Below, piece by piece: positions 52,571 through 58,606 of a stretch of DNA of 64,000 nucleotides (its first letter is position 1; the number at the start of each line of letters is the position of its first letter). Under the pieces are notes generated by a model, which saw nothing but the letters and a program-made list of their open reading frames with translations, made no database searches and was not told where the DNA came from. Source of the stretch: Mariniflexile maritimum. GTDB taxonomy: Bacteria > Bacteroidota > Bacteroidia > Flavobacteriales > Flavobacteriaceae. The stretch is from assembly GCF_009746565.1 (NCBI RefSeq), contig NZ_WRPN01000009.1, positions 1-64,000 on the forward strand. Direction: 5' to 3'. Made by a program: the position numbers and the translations under genes.

Positions 52571-53596
52571 ATGATAAAGAACGATTTATTTTTAAGAGCA
52601 TTAAAAGGAGAAACCGTTAACCGCCCACCCGTTTGGATGATGCGACAAGCAGGCCGTTACTTACCCGAATTTATAGCACTTCGCGATAAATACGATTTCT
52701 TTACACGTTGCCAAACCCCCGAAATAGCCAGTGAAATTACCGTACAGCCCATACGCCGCTACGGGATGGACGCCGCTATTTTATTTAGTGATATTTTGGT
52801 AATTCCGCAGGCCATGAACATTGAGGTGCAAATGAAACCCAATTTTGGGCCCTATTTACCAAACCCTATACGAACATCAAAAGACGTTGAAAATGTAATT
52901 GTACCCGATGTTACCGAAGCCCTAAACTATGTTTATCAGGCCATTAAGGCCACCAAGGAGCTGTTGAACGACGAAATCCCGCTTATAGGTTTTGCCGGTT
53001 CGCCATGGACAATTTTATGCTATTGCGTACAAGGCCAAGGCAGCAAAACCTTCGACAAAGCCAAAGAATTTTGCTTTACAAACCCCGTAGCAGCACACAC
53101 TTTGCTTCAAAAAATAACCGATACCACCATTGCCTACTTAAAGGAGAAAGTAAAGGCCGGCTGTAATGCCGTACAGGTTTTCGATTCATGGGGAGGCATG
53201 TTATCACCAACCGATTATCAGGAGTTTTCATGGCAGTACATCAATCAAATCATTGAAGCCCTCAAAGACGATGCCCCCGTTATCGCCTTCGGTAAAGGCT
53301 GCTGGTTCGCACTTGGCGATATGGCAAAAAGTAATGCTTCCGCTTTGGGTATCGATTGGACCTGTTCCCCAAAAAACGCACGTTATCTAACAGGTGGCAA
53401 CATCACGTTACAAGGTAATTTCGATCCGGCGCGCTTACTGTCGCCACCAACGGTAATCAAGCAAATGGTAAAGCAAATGATTGATGAGTTTGGCAAGGAC
53501 AAATACATCGTCAACCTAGGCCATGGCATTTTGCCCAACATCCCTTTAGAAAACGCCAAAGCCTTTGTTGATGCCGTAAAAGACTATAAAGTTTAA
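52571..53596 (+). CDS. hemE: Uroporphyrinogen decarboxylase
   Basis: HemE converts uroporphyrinogen III to coproporphyrinogen III. The 341-residue enzyme has the signature [16 protein letters not shown] (about 19-34) with the conserved arginine, the active-site segment [15 protein letters not shown] with Asp, the substrate-facing [11 protein letters not shown] and Tyr, and the C-terminal [15 protein letters not shown]. It is full length. It follows the trkA gene by 38 bases and precedes a structured repeat. Confidence 0.96.
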
Positions 53597-54536: not shown

Positions 54537-55826
54537 ATGGTTCAAAAAATCATCTTATCTCCATTTCAAAAGTTTGTAAAAATCGAAAGTTTTAGCGGTA
54601 TTTTATTGTTGTTGGCAACTGTTTTGGCACTTATTTGGGCAAATTCACCATACTCAGAAAGTTATCAAGCGTTGTGGCAATATAAAGTGGGCTTCACCAC
54701 CGAGAGCTTCGAATTAAACAAACCACTTATTTTATGGATAAATGATGGGTTAATGGCCATTTTCTTCTTCTTGATAGGTTTGGAAATTAAACGTGAATTT
54801 TTAATAGGCGAACTTAATTCGGCAAAAAAACTGGCATTTCCCCTTTTTGGCGCATTAGGCGGTATTATTGCCCCAGTTACGTTCTTTTTTATATTAAACC
54901 AAAATCCAGAAACCTTAAAAGGTTGGGGCATACCCATGGCTACCGATATTGCTTTTTCGTTGGCACTTTTAAAAGTGTTGGGAAACCGCGTGCCATTAAG
55001 CCTTAAGGTTTTTTTAACGGCTTTCGCCATTGTGGACGATTTAGGGGCCGTTTTAGTGATTGCCATATTTTACAGCAGTACCATTCAATTGGAATTATTG
55101 GGGATGGCCTTTTTGCTATTGGGCGTTTTGTATTTCTTATCGTACAAAAACTATTATTCCAAGTTTTTAATGATTTTTTTAGGAATCATCATTTGGGTAT
55201 TATTTTTAAAATCGGGCATCCACCCCACATTGGCAGGGATTTTATTGGCGTTTTCGGTGCCCATTCGCCAAAAGATAAAAACGCCCGAGTTTATTGATAA
55301 TTTAGTAACCATTACCAATAACATTAAGGAAGCAAGTGTTTTAAAAAAGCCCATTTTATCTAAAGAACAAATCCAAGAAATCGACGATTTGGAAGATTGG
55401 GCCAGCAAATACCAATCGCCATTACAACACCTAGAGCACAGTTTGCACGATTGGGTTGCCTACATGGTCATACCCATATTTGCCCTGGCAAATTCGGGGG
55501 TTGTATTAAACAATGGCTTTGAATTGGAAAATCTGTTGATAATAAATATCGTAATATCTTTAGTGTTGGGTAAAAGTATCGGGATTACGGCTGTGGTGCT
55601 GCTTGCAAAAAAATTAAAACTAATTGAAGTCCCTTCCGATATTAGCACAAGGCATATTGTAGGCGTATCTTTTTTGGCAGGAATTGGGTTTACCATGGCC
55701 ATTTTTATAGCAAGTTTAGCGTTTGCTGATAGCCCCATTTATATCGATTCGGCTAAAATAGGTATTTTAGTAGGCTCATTTATTGCGGCACTTATTGGGT
55801 ACATTATTTTACGTTGGAAAAAATAA
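54537..55826 (+). CDS. nhaA: Na+/H+ antiporter NhaA
   Basis: NhaA exchanges sodium for protons across the inner membrane. The 429-residue protein has about twelve membrane helices, the paired aspartates in FAIVDDLGAVLVIAIFY (about 160-176), the DIAFSLALLKVLGNRVP helix before it, and the C-terminal GFTMAIFIASLAF region. All key residues are present. It is preceded by the EI24 gene and followed by a REP palindrome and the RAYT-hemF gene. Confidence 0.95.
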   Translation: MVQKIILSPFQKFVKIESFSGILLLLATVLALIWANSPYSESYQALWQYKVGFTTESFELNKPLILWINDGLMAIFFFLIGLEIKREFLIGELNSAKKLAFPLFGALGGIIAPVTFFFILNQNPETLKGWGIPMATDIAFSLALLKVLGNRVPLSLKVFLTAFAIVDDLGAVLVIAIFYSSTIQLELLGMAFLLLGVLYFLSYKNYYSKFLMIFLGIIIWVLFLKSGIHPTLAGILLAFSVPIRQKIKTPEFIDNLVTITNNIKEASVLKKPILSKEQIQEIDDLEDWASKYQSPLQHLEHSLHDWVAYMVIPIFALANSGVVLNNGFELENLLIINIVISLVLGKSIGITAVVLLAKKLKLIEVPSDISTRHIVGVSFLAGIGFTMAIFIASLAFADSPIYIDSAKIGILVGSFIAALIGYIILRWKK

Positions 55827-55833
55827 GGATGAC

Positions 55834-55864
55834 GACCTGCAAGGTTTTCAAAACCTTGTAGGTC
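55834..55864. repeat. REP palindrome upstream of the RAYT gene
   Basis: A 31-base near-perfect palindrome, GACCTGCAAGGTTTT-C-AAAACC and then TTGTAGGTC, with a 15-base stem (one G-T pair), lies eight bases after nhaA and 14 bases before the RAYT start. It may also end the nhaA transcript. Confidence 0.8.
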
Positions 55865-55878
55865 TGAAAAAATAAACC

Positions 55879-57474
55879 ATGAAAATTGAAAAAATAGAGA
55901 AAACCCATTATTATCATATTTTCAATCGAGGAATTAATAGCGCTGTTATTTTCAAGACTGAAGATAACATGGCATATTTCCTGGGTTTAATTGAAAAGCA
56001 TTTAACGGGAAAAGTTGAGGTACTTGCCTATTGCTTAATGAGCAATCAGTTTCATTTAATTGTAAACATCATTGAAAATGCCGAGGTGGTAAGTAAAGCG
56101 TTTTCAAATCTTTTCAATGCGTATGCGAAAGCTTTCAATAAACAACAAAATAGAACAGGGAGTTTGTTTGAAAAACATTTCAGAAGAAAAAGGATTACCG
56201 ATGAAACGTACTTAAAAAATTTAATTCTTTATGTTCATAAAAATCCTGAAATTCATAATGTAGCGACGAGTTTTAAGGAGTATAAATACACATCATATAA
56301 AAATTTCTTTTCGGATAACGAAAGTTTGATATCCAAAAACAAGGGTTACGTTTTAAGTCTTTTTGGAGGTTTAACAAATTTTGAAGTTACGCATCAATCA
56401 GACCTGCGAGGTTTTCAAAACCTTGTAGGTCTAGAAAATCCAGATACCATCCACCCCAACCCACAAGGTAATGAAAAGCGGGATGCTCAAAATACCGTCC
56501 ATCACAACCTGCAAGGTCTCAAAGACCTTGTAGGTTTGCCAATGAAAGACAAATTCCAACAATACATACAAACCTTGCAAGATACCATTACTTCAAAATT
56601 GGAAGCAGTTGATGGTGCCGCAAGGTTTAAAGAAGATATTTGGCAACGACCGGAAGGCGGTGGCGGACGCACGCGAGTTATCGAAAACGGCCATGTTTTT
56701 GAAAAAGGTGGTGTTAATATTTCGGCGGTACACGGTAAATTGCCCGAGTCGATGCAAACATTGTTCAACGTAGGCGAAGCCGATTTTTTTGCCTGTGGTT
56801 TGAGTTTGGTGCTCCATCCAAAAAACCCCATGGTACCCACTGTTCACGCCAATTGGCGCTATTTTGAAATGTATCCAGATAAGGTAAGTGGGGAAGCTTC
56901 CACTTTGGGGGCTAGAGGGCTTTCTTGGTTTGGTGGCGGCCAGGATTTAACGCCCTATTATTTGTTTGAAGAAGATGCCATGCACTTTCACCAAATTTGT
57001 AAAATGGCCTGTGATAAGCACAATCCAGATTTTTATCCCAAATATAAAAAACAATGCGACAACTATTTTTGGAACGCACACCGCAACGAAGCCCGTGGCA
57101 TTGGCGGATTGTTTTTCGATTATTGTAAAGTTTCCGAAGACATGCAAATGGCAGATTGGTACAACTTTGTAACCGAAGTTGGTAATAGTTTTCTTGAGGC
57201 TTACGTGCCCATTGTTGAAAAACGCAAAGGGCTGCCTTATACGAAGGCCCAAAGAAATTGGCAGGAAATTCGTCGAGGACGTTATGTGGAATTCAATTTA
57301 GTGCACGATAAAGGCACGCTTTTCGGACTCAAAACAAACGGACGCATAGAGAGTATTTTAATGAGCTTGCCACCTCATGTACAATGGCTATACAACCATC
57401 ACCCTGAATCCGGAAGTGACGAAGAAAAGTTATTAGAAATATTGAAAAAGCCCAAAGATTGGATAACTTCCTAA
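55879..57474 (+). CDS. hemF: RAYT transposase fused in frame to coproporphyrinogen III oxidase (HemF)
   Basis: One uninterrupted 531-codon frame. Residues 1-170 are a REP-associated tyrosine transposase (Y1_Tnp): HYYHIFNRGIN at 10-20, the metal motif as NQFHLI (57-61, with Gln where the first His of HUH is expected), RTGSLFEKHFRRKRI and the probable nucleophile Tyr118 in LILYVHKNPE. Residues 175-220 are a linker encoded by two REP palindromes. From Met222 (ATG at 56542) the protein is a full-length, 310-residue oxygen-dependent HemF, with GGGGRTRVIENG, WFGGGQDLTPYYLF and NEARGIGGLFFDY. No stop separates the parts. HemF may be made as the fusion, by internal initiation at Met222, or both. It sits between nhaA and hemB. 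Confidence 0.9.
   Translation: MKIEKIEKTHYYHIFNRGINSAVIFKTEDNMAYFLGLIEKHLTGKVEVLAYCLMSNQFHLIVNIIENAEVVSKAFSNLFNAYAKAFNKQQNRTGSLFEKHFRRKRITDETYLKNLILYVHKNPEIHNVATSFKEYKYTSYKNFFSDNESLISKNKGYVLSLFGGLTNFEVTHQSDLRGFQNLVGLENPDTIHPNPQGNEKRDAQNTVHHNLQGLKDLVGLPMKDKFQQYIQTLQDTITSKLEAVDGAARFKEDIWQRPEGGGGRTRVIENGHVFEKGGVNISAVHGKLPESMQTLFNVGEADFFACGLSLVLHPKNPMVPTVHANWRYFEMYPDKVSGEASTLGARGLSWFGGGQDLTPYYLFEEDAMHFHQICKMACDKHNPDFYPKYKKQCDNYFWNAHRNEARGIGGLFFDYCKVSEDMQMADWYNFVTEVGNSFLEAYVPIVEKRKGLPYTKAQRNWQEIRRGRYVEFNLVHDKGTLFGLKTNGRIESILMSLPPHVQWLYNHHPESGSDEEKLLEILKKPKDWITS
56401..56431. repeat. REP palindrome translated inside the RAYT-HemF linker, copy 1
   Basis: GACCTGCGAGGTTTTC plus AAAACCTTGTAGGTC lies in frame, beginning exactly at codon 175, and encodes DLRGFQNLVG. 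Confidence 0.8.
56506..56536. repeat. REP palindrome translated inside the RAYT-HemF linker, copy 2
   Basis: AACCTGCAAGGTCTC plus AAAGACCTTGTAGGTT begins exactly at codon 210 and encodes NLQGLKDLVG. It ends five bases before the presumed native hemF ATG at 56542. Compensatory changes on both sides (TTTT to TCTC, AAAA to AAAG) keep the stem. Confidence 0.8.
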
Positions 57475-57533
57475 CCCCAAACGGGAACGCGAACGCAAAT
57501 GAATATTAAAACAAAAATAAACCGTCTTTCAAT

Positions 57534-57611
57534 CCCCTCTTTGGGGGTTAGGGAGCTTTAAACCCTATTGACCCCTAATAGGAATTCCCTCTTTTGGGGG
57601 TTAGGGGACTT
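57534..57611. repeat. Direct repeat ahead of hemB
   Basis: Two 25-base copies of CCCCTCTTTGGGGGTTAGGG with variable ends (57534-57558 and 57587-57611), each containing a CCC...GGG hairpin. The second copy ends two bases before the hemB ATG. Confidence 0.7.
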
Positions 57612-57613
57612 AT

Positions 57614-58606
57614 ATGTATCCACTTAGAAGAAACCGACGATTAAGAACCAACGAAGCCATTAGAAGTTTGGTTCGCGAAACCATCATTTCGCCCAACGAC
57701 TTTTTAGTGCCTCTTTTTGTGGTTGAAGGCAAAGGTGTTAAAGATGAAATCCCCTCCATGCCCAATTACTTTCGCTACAGCTTGGATTTGTTAGAAAACG
57801 AAGTAAAAGAACTTTGGAAGTTGGGTTTAAAATCGGTGTTGCTATTTGTAAAAGTGCCCGATAACTTAAAAGACAACCAAGGTAAAGAAGCCCTAAACCC
57901 AAACGGTTTGATGCAACGGGCCATTAAAACCGTAAAAAACGCATGCCCCGATATGTTGGTAATGACCGATGTGGCACTCGACCCCTATTCTGTTTACGGT
58001 CATGATGGTATTATTGAAAACGGTATGATAGTAAACGATGCTACTGCCAATTTTCTTGCAGAAATGAGCCTTTCTCACGCTAAAGCGGGTGCCGATTTTG
58101 TAGCACCAAGTGATATGATGGACGGACGCATCCTGACCATTCGTGAAGCGTTGGAAAACGATGGTTTCATCAATACAGGTATTATGAGTTATTCCGCTAA
58201 ATATGCCTCGGCGTTTTATGGGCCCTTTCGCGATGCCCTAGATTCTGCTCCGGTGGATATGATTGATATTCCAAAAGATAAAAAAACCTATCAAATGGAT
58301 TATGCCAACCGCAAAGAGGCCATTAAAGAAACCGAAATGGATATTGATGAAGGTGCCGACATCGTGATGGTAAAACCAGGATTGTGCTATTTGGACATTG
58401 TTCGCGAAATAAAAAATGCAGTAGATGTTCCCGTAGCAGTATATCAAGTTTCTGGCGAGTATGCCATGTTAAAAGCCGCAGCCGAAAAAGGTTGGCTAGA
58501 CCACGATGCCGTTATGATGGAACAAATTACCGCCATAAAACGAGCAGGAGCCGATGTCATTGTTTCTTATTTTGCCAAGGATGTTGTGAAAATTTTAAAT
58601 AGATAA
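57614..58606 (+). CDS. hemB: Delta-aminolevulinic acid dehydratase (porphobilinogen synthase)
   Basis: HemB joins two aminolevulinate molecules to porphobilinogen. The 330-residue TIM barrel has both active-site lysines, in TGIMSYSAKYASAFYGPF and DIVMVKPGLCYLDIV. The metal loop reads MTDVALDPYSVYGHDG, without the three cysteines of zinc-type enzymes, so it should be a Mg2+-dependent form. The N-terminal arm (RRNRRLRTNEAIRSLVRE) is normal. It follows the RAYT-hemF gene by 139 bases that are full of repeats, which makes its own promoter hard to place. Confidence 0.96.
   Translation: MYPLRRNRRLRTNEAIRSLVRETIISPNDFLVPLFVVEGKGVKDEIPSMPNYFRYSLDLLENEVKELWKLGLKSVLLFVKVPDNLKDNQGKEALNPNGLMQRAIKTVKNACPDMLVMTDVALDPYSVYGHDGIIENGMIVNDATANFLAEMSLSHAKAGADFVAPSDMMDGRILTIREALENDGFINTGIMSYSAKYASAFYGPFRDALDSAPVDMIDIPKDKKTYQMDYANRKEAIKETEMDIDEGADIVMVKPGLCYLDIVREIKNAVDVPVAVYQVSGEYAMLKAAAEKGWLDHDAVMMEQITAIKRAGADVIVSYFAKDVVKILNR

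Follow-up and report, generated by a model that had tools for sequence, protein, structure and literature searches.

A RAYT domain joined in frame to HemF

The window, a 64,000-nucleotide stretch of the Mariniflexile maritimum genome (Flavobacteriaceae), contains a haem biosynthesis cluster in which the hemF gene has an unusual 5' extension. A frame of 531 codons runs on the forward strand from an ATG at 55879 to a stop codon ending at 57474 and has no internal stops. It comprises the predicted domain of a REP-associated tyrosine transposase (RAYT) of the TnpA-REP-like, HUH/Y1 type (residues 1-174; 55879-56400), a linker of 47 codons (56401-56541) and HemF, the oxygen-dependent coproporphyrinogen oxidase (56542-57474). 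The RAYT part is therefore an N-terminal domain of HemF rather than a stand-alone gene, and the same architecture occurs in 37 further distinct sequences. Neighboring genes on the same strand are hemE (uroporphyrinogen decarboxylase; 52571-53596), nhaA (54537-55826), which lies directly upstream of the RAYT part and its flanking repeats, and hemB (porphobilinogen synthase; 57614-58606), downstream of the fusion. These three score above the cut-offs of TIGR01464, TIGR00773 and NF006762, respectively, and a CysZ-like gene, whose profile score is below its cut-off, is also among the neighbors. Between hemF and hemB (57533-57611) are two copies of a TCCCTCTTTTGGGGGTTAGGGGACTT-like repeat, which is unlike the palindromes described below.

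Residues 224-528 match the HemF profiles PF01218 (442 bits) and NF003727 (416 bits; cut-off 297), so that a full-length HemF domain is present above both curated cut-offs. It is the only HemF match in the genome, and HemF was matched in all 25 fusions scanned. The RAYT part of the window scores below curated cut-offs, with 45.7 bits against 80 for NF047646 and 18.2 against 23 for Y1_Tnp (PF01797). These cut-offs were applied to the window only; judged by E-value, all 25 fusions scanned match both NF047646 (E <= 0.001) and Y1_Tnp (E <= 1). A predicted structure has a RAYT domain with a pLDDT of ~90, an apparently disordered stretch at residues 177-220 (pLDDT <50) and a HemF part that the AlphaFold model, built on a shallow alignment, gives with low confidence. 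When this structure was searched with Foldseek, the best match outside HemF was 4er8, in which a RAYT binds a REP hairpin (E 6e-6, TM 0.67 by target length, 14% identity). Because of this fold match and the agreement of all 25 fusions with both models, the RAYT assignment holds despite the weak profile scores. The original prediction, that a RAYT and a complete HemF share one stop-free frame with a native-looking, in-frame hemF ATG at 56542, is thus borne out.

The catalytic tyrosine position is Tyr118 of the sequence YVHKNP (56230-56232). The HUH motif (56047-56055) reads Gln-Phe-His in the window, and its first histidine is changed. A second RAYT in this genome (G000:C23:395272-395790) is unfused, 44% identical to the first, and has an intact HUH motif.

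REP palindromes flank the RAYT domain and encode the linker

Palindromes of the form GACCTGCAAGGTTTTCAAAACCTTGTAGGTC occur on the forward strand at 55834, 56401 and about 56507, and thus on both sides of the RAYT part. The first (55834-55864) lies upstream of the RAYT start and folds at -21.4 kcal/mol (z -7.2). The other two are inside the linker, DLRGFQNLVGL...NLQGLKDLVGLP, where the copy at 56401-56431 is read in frame as DLRGFQNLVGL (hairpin z -7.4) and that at about 56507-56535 as NLQGLKDLVGL (hairpin z -5.7). The gap from the latter hairpin to the hemF ATG is 6 nt. A pattern allowing at most three mismatches found only the first two copies in the window and had no matches in 100 shuffles; the third copy was found by other searches. 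An earlier reading of the linker had recognized that it is stop-free and had overlooked the three REPs, two of which are coding.

Linkers of the 38 fusions range from 17 to 136 codons. None has a stop in the fused frame, for which the fusions had been selected, versus 33 and 37 of the 38 with stops in the other two frames. The REP peptide theme recurs in most other fusions, for example as DLQGFENLAGQ or DLSGFENLTGL, although one (L066) has hardly any of it. The peptide DLSGFENLTGL corresponds to a variant REP, GACCTGTCAGG...CCTGACAGGTC, that is scattered through several of the genomes carrying the peptide. Unfused RAYTs mostly end in a short tail of their own that lacks the REP peptide; REP-like or partial tails are present on L054, L057/L086, L100, L102 and L118, the last of which is cut by a contig end.

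Distribution of the fusion

Of 397 Flavobacteriaceae genomes sampled, 61 have a RAYT match, and in 16 of them, from 16 genera, RAYT and HemF share a frame. Named genomes yielded 95 relatives of the window RAYT, and the 80 best were carried forward. After loci with identical RAYT domains had been merged and L051, a duplicate of L021, had been dropped, the loci gathered included 38 distinct fusions, 15 unfused RAYTs within 700 bp upstream of hemF, 7 rows with a RAYT farther upstream (two of these rows being the same gene of genome G012) and 45 RAYTs without hemF in the stretch examined. A further fusion, in genome G102, is outside the 38. Fusions were found in Mariniflexile, Hanstruepera, Flavivirga, Seonamhaeicola, Algibacter, Gelidibacter, Hyunsoonleella, Maribacter, Polaribacter, Subsaximicrobium and Aequorivita. 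The stop-free join of RAYT and hemF noted in the original prediction is thus a recurrent arrangement in the family rather than one lost stop in one genome.

A phylum-wide sample of 395 genomes has RAYTs in 151. Among the matches listed, frames long enough to include HemF occur in G000, G153 and G184, all Flavobacteriaceae, and in G527, whose 484-aa frame was rejected as a fusion because it holds an ordinary 292-aa RAYT.

A quick tree of RAYTs places 53 of them in a hemF-linked clade (SH-aLRT 89), within which L117 and L118 end at contig ends and were left unclassed; L040, which is cut by the locus end and is the same gene as L082, was omitted from the tree. Thirteen of the 53 are unfused, so fusion is not needed for linkage to hemF. 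In one genome (G354), the stop codon of an unfused RAYT overlaps the hemF ATG as ATGA (gap -1). In another (G239:C11:235578-236247), an unfused RAYT ahead of hemF has five REPs immediately before it, spaced at a period of ~160 bp. In genome G012, which belongs to a different genus, a RAYT frame (L082/L040) ends ~10 nt before a hemE-like gene, named for its likeness to hemE of the window.

Loss of the hemF start codon

The codon aligned to HemF codon 1 is ATG in 19 of the 38 fusions, including the window, compared with 40 of 43 unfused HemFs. The other 19 fusions have ATC (seven), ACC (three), TTA (two), ATA (two), TTC, CTA, TGT, GTC or TTT. ATC and ATA, which account for nine of these codons, are rare starts in table 11, where the remaining ten are not listed as such. 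Each of the three unfused HemFs that lack ATG at this position has an in-frame ATG 1-4 codons upstream. When codons -10 to +5 are considered, 15 of 38 fusions and 0 of 43 unfused HemFs are without any in-frame ATG, GTG or TTG (Fisher p 2e-6, for rows that are not independent), and in 10 of the 38 no such codon occurs from the RAYT end to HemF codon 30. Parsimony counts of start-codon changes among fused rows are 13 for the HemF tree and 12 for the RAYT tree, many branches being weakly supported.

The absence of a nearby start in 15 fusions implies that HemF in these cases should be made either as the fusion or from a start inside the RAYT domain or linker. Fourteen of the 15 retain in-frame ATGs within the RAYT domain; in G184, the sole ATG of this domain is its first codon. 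HemF therefore often seems unable to start by itself in fusions, and translation of the fused protein appears probable from the sequences.

Of 27 genomes searched, 26 have a full-length HemF, in each case as a single copy; one of them (G001) also has a hemF fragment. HemN scores above its cut-off in 24 of the 27, the exceptions being G352, its genus mate G165, and G251. The HemF of G352 is fused and has TTT as codon 1; the assembly of this genome is fragmented and 96% complete. The loss of start codons, the single HemF and the case of G352 together suggest that, in several species, the fusion or an internally started form should supply HemF. It had been proposed that fused and separate products are both possible. 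This may still be so for the window, which keeps its ATG, but is hard to hold for relatives lacking a start.

The A content upstream of codon 1 is similar in fusions that keep ATG (0.40) and those that have lost it (0.45; p 0.29). The value for kept hemF ATGs is lower than that for unfused hemF starts (0.49; p 0.036) and for RAYT starts (0.52; p 0.001).

The RAYT domain is conserved and its REPs are scattered

In the 38 fusions, His59 and Tyr118 are conserved without exception and His57 in all but one. The exception is the window itself, which has Gln57. The RAYT part of the window copy may therefore be inactive. Ratios of dN/dS for the RAYT domain are 0.08-0.18 in 9 of 13 chosen pairs and 0.26-0.41 in the other four, compared with 0.03-0.11 for HemF and 0.16 and up for linkers, values that are rough because several dS estimates are near or above 1. 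Ratios of this size point to purifying selection on the RAYT domain.

REPs of one form or the other are present in every fused genome examined except G102 (17 of 18), with up to 27 forward matches, counts that include copies at the fusion locus itself. Genomes with an unfused RAYT beside hemF have them in 4 of 5 cases. Where no RAYT lies directly before hemF, the figure is 4 of 13, with at most two forward matches. As a control, the reversed patterns had no REP matches in any of the 36 genomes. Within the genus of the window, forward matches to the first REP form number 11, 5 and 9 in fused genomes versus 0, 1 and 0 in the others.

Probable gain, loss and exchange of the module

Three of the six genomes of the window's genus lack the module of REP, RAYT and linker. 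In one of these (G003), nhaA ends just before the hemF ATG, where the window has the module. The gene upstream varies among loci (nhaA in the window, a CysZ-like gene in G002), whereas hemF is constant. Flanks of 26 module-free hemF loci were matched to occupied loci to identify empty sites. Among the 60 longest of 627 matches, 35 come to 30 nt or less from the hemF ATG of the module-free locus; on the occupied side, most of these 35 end 46-126 nt ahead of the RAYT ATG. The remaining 25 fall short of the hemF ATG by 65-380 nt. One locus (G005) has REP-like remnants before hemF and no RAYT there.

The HemF tree joins fused members of the genus with module-free members (L017 with L022; L021 and L083 with L023 and L029). 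Fused and module-free HemFs interleave on this tree, with 18 parsimony changes, 7 of which are forced by its starred branches.

One pair of sister loci, L119 and L066, shows replacement of the module. Their HemFs are 98.7% identical and their RAYTs only 55.2%. Along the locus, identity is 75-100% in flank windows, 36-83% in RAYT and linker, and 90-100% in hemF, with borders of the divergent segment at the upstream REP and at hemF codon 1; dS is 0.86 in RAYT versus 0.19 in HemF. Because a sister relationship of the two RAYTs remains compatible with an AU test (p 0.21), the case for replacement rests on this divergence and not on the tree. A corresponding test for L064 with L070 is borderline (p 0.056). 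The HemF data reject (AU test, p 0.001) a RAYT group of L119, L096, L098 and L099, which was chosen after the RAYT tree had been seen and is modestly supported there. In the close pairs L096/L098, L143/L145 and L090/L062, the whole unit and its flanks have diverged at similar rates.

A broken hemF start upstream of the module was detected in 2 of 60 loci searched. In G001 (L021:1220-1396), this relic is followed by the apparent 3' end of a CysZ-like gene, and both are upstream of the REPs and RAYT. The relic is 97% identical to the fused hemF start over 94 nt. Therefore, the hemF start looks duplicated in place, and the idea that the module had brought a foreign hemF 5' end was rejected. The relic is perhaps a scar of insertion or duplication. 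The second case, in Polaribacter (L123:2560-2890), is a decayed linker-like stretch with a REP and a hemF start upstream of an intact RAYT-HemF, perhaps reflecting a second round of insertion or duplication.

Proposed anchoring of a REPtron to hemF

RAYTs are transposase-like, persistent and puzzling genes, and we know of no agreed reason for their persistence. We consider it probable, on balance, that the fusions represent a resident REPtron (a RAYT gene with its REP palindromes) that is anchored to hemF, borrows hemF expression and is thereby protected from loss. Such a REPtron would lie in the small interval that separates hemF from the gene before it. Its downstream REPs would have become coding, such that RAYT, a REP-encoded linker and HemF form one polypeptide in which HemF still works behind a flexible linker. 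If RAYT thus starts translation of a core enzyme, it would be steadily expressed and could not be deleted unless the hemF start were restored. Lineages would acquire the module, lose it and exchange it with one another, and its borders would lie close to the upstream REP and codon 1 of hemF.

At the level of sequence, this model builds on the fusion frame and its recurrence, the loss of start codons, selection on the RAYT domain, the single HemF, the co-occurrence of REPs, the empty sites and one replacement. Points that weigh against it are the hemF ATG kept in half of the fusions, the nine ATC or ATA codons that are rare starts, the ATGs inside the RAYT domain of 14 fusions lacking a nearby start, the unfused members of the hemF-linked clade, the similar A content before kept and lost ATGs, the AU result for L119 and L066, the fusion of G102 in a genome with no REP matches, and the four pairs with higher RAYT dN/dS. 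In most lineages the active site is kept and REPs are scattered, and thus we read the RAYT as a competent resident rather than a dead tag. Presumably, then, the RAYT part acts on REPs in the fusions. The direction of gain and loss of the module is likewise presumed, as is anchoring to hemF as the reason that the module persists.

Functional domestication of the RAYT domain was implied by the original prediction. Were the fusion retained because the domain serves the host, perhaps by binding REPs or DNA and so regulating haem synthesis, purifying selection on RAYT would be expected, and the hemF-linked clade does cover many genera. The three close pairs in which the unit keeps pace with its flanks, and the window frame that is still open although its HUH motif has changed, also agree with such a role. 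However, the module is patchy, being present in 16 of 397 genomes and missing from half of those in the window's genus, and the interleaving of fused and module-free HemFs argues against a settled function. Moreover, the HUH motif and tyrosine kept in 37 of 38 fusions are not obviously needed for DNA binding alone. Because the module is patchy and was exchanged at least once, with its catalytic residues intact and REPs scattered in the genomes, while loss of the hemF start often seems to have rendered it indispensable, an anchored REPtron fits better than settled domestication. We therefore regard domestication as unlikely, and for the family as a whole the term "domesticated" is doubtful, given also the replacement in one pair.

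Translational coupling alone would mean that RAYT and HemF are separate products, that HemF translation begins at its own codon or at an internal one close by, and that sharing a frame is of no significance. This likewise has little probability in our judgment. The hemF ATG kept in half of the fusions would be consistent with it, as would the 15 unfused RAYTs that lie -1 to 541 bp upstream of hemF in Arenibacter, Dokdonia, Snuella and other genera, including the ATGA overlap in G354. However, coupling does not readily explain the 15 fusions without any ATG, GTG or TTG near HemF codon 1. The low A content before kept hemF ATGs, relative to unfused hemF and RAYT starts, and the REP hairpin ending just before the hemF ATG of the window also weigh against it. 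Finally, an assembly or frame artefact, or an accident of a single genome, deserves practically no credence, because the architecture recurs in independent genomes as 38 distinct sequences, including the single-contig genomes G001, G153, G184, G195, G275 and G372.

If the RAYT-HemF protein does represent an anchored REPtron, it suggests a route by which a selfish gene may lock itself to a core gene. A RAYT lineage physically joined to a core metabolic gene would offer a concrete and testable way for a transposase to persist, and repeat DNA can be seen here turning into a protein linker. More tentatively, an HUH transposase lineage might survive as the obligatory N-terminus of a single-copy haem enzyme, with REPs serving as both linker and exchange borders and with erosion of the hemF start creating host dependence. 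Since HemF is a homodimer, it could then pair two RAYT domains on paired REPs.

Comparison with known systems

The literature searched, chiefly open-access articles, describes no RAYT-HemF protein, in agreement with the original prediction. The fusions resemble the RAYT/TnpA-REP proteins of REPtrons in their HUH motif and tyrosine, 4er8-like fold, REPs at their flanks and similar ones elsewhere in the genome. In REPtrons, however, RAYTs are genes of their own; in the fusions, the RAYT forms the N-terminal part of a housekeeping enzyme. In a RAYT survey, subclasses have median lengths of 148-325 aa and are genes of their own, and unexpectedly long proteins were discarded as gene fusions or annotation errors (PMC6006769). 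The survey also describes TnpA-REP proteins of subclass 2.4 with an in-frame REP insert, generally between HUH and Tyr (PMC6006769). These proteins are similar to the fusions in that REP DNA is read in frame within a RAYT reading frame. They differ in that REPs of the fusions form a linker to another enzyme; those of the window sit in the linker and not between HUH and Tyr. Rickettsia palindromic elements and REPs inside genes are translated within otherwise normal proteins (PMC3733652). Repeats of that kind come alone, whereas the repeat of RAYT-HemF comes with its RAYT as a protein domain.

A second type of RAYT fusion occurs once in the 397 genomes, where a RAYT is joined in frame to a Pif1-like helicase (Pif1/HRDC) in G251 (L169:318-3395). 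Repeated TVTQSHGVSxTL peptides are present inside its RAYT and in its linker. Matches to this RAYT part in the 397 genomes include no second such long frame, and the closest four (in G339, G261, G280 and G401) are all unfused. Such joins can therefore arise elsewhere, and of the RAYT fusions in this sample, the HemF one alone has spread.

Inteins and homing endonucleases shelter a nuclease gene in the reading frame of a core gene and are patchily distributed. RAYT-HemF is like them in both respects, but it has no splicing, its enzyme is an HUH enzyme of single-stranded DNA accompanied by REPs, and homing is putative at most. Compared with stand-alone HemF, the fusions have the same full HemF domain, above curated cut-offs and in single copy, but add an N-terminal RAYT and linker and have a codon 1 other than ATG in half of the cases. 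Thus, some annotated HemF proteins may include about 200 residues of transposase and linker.
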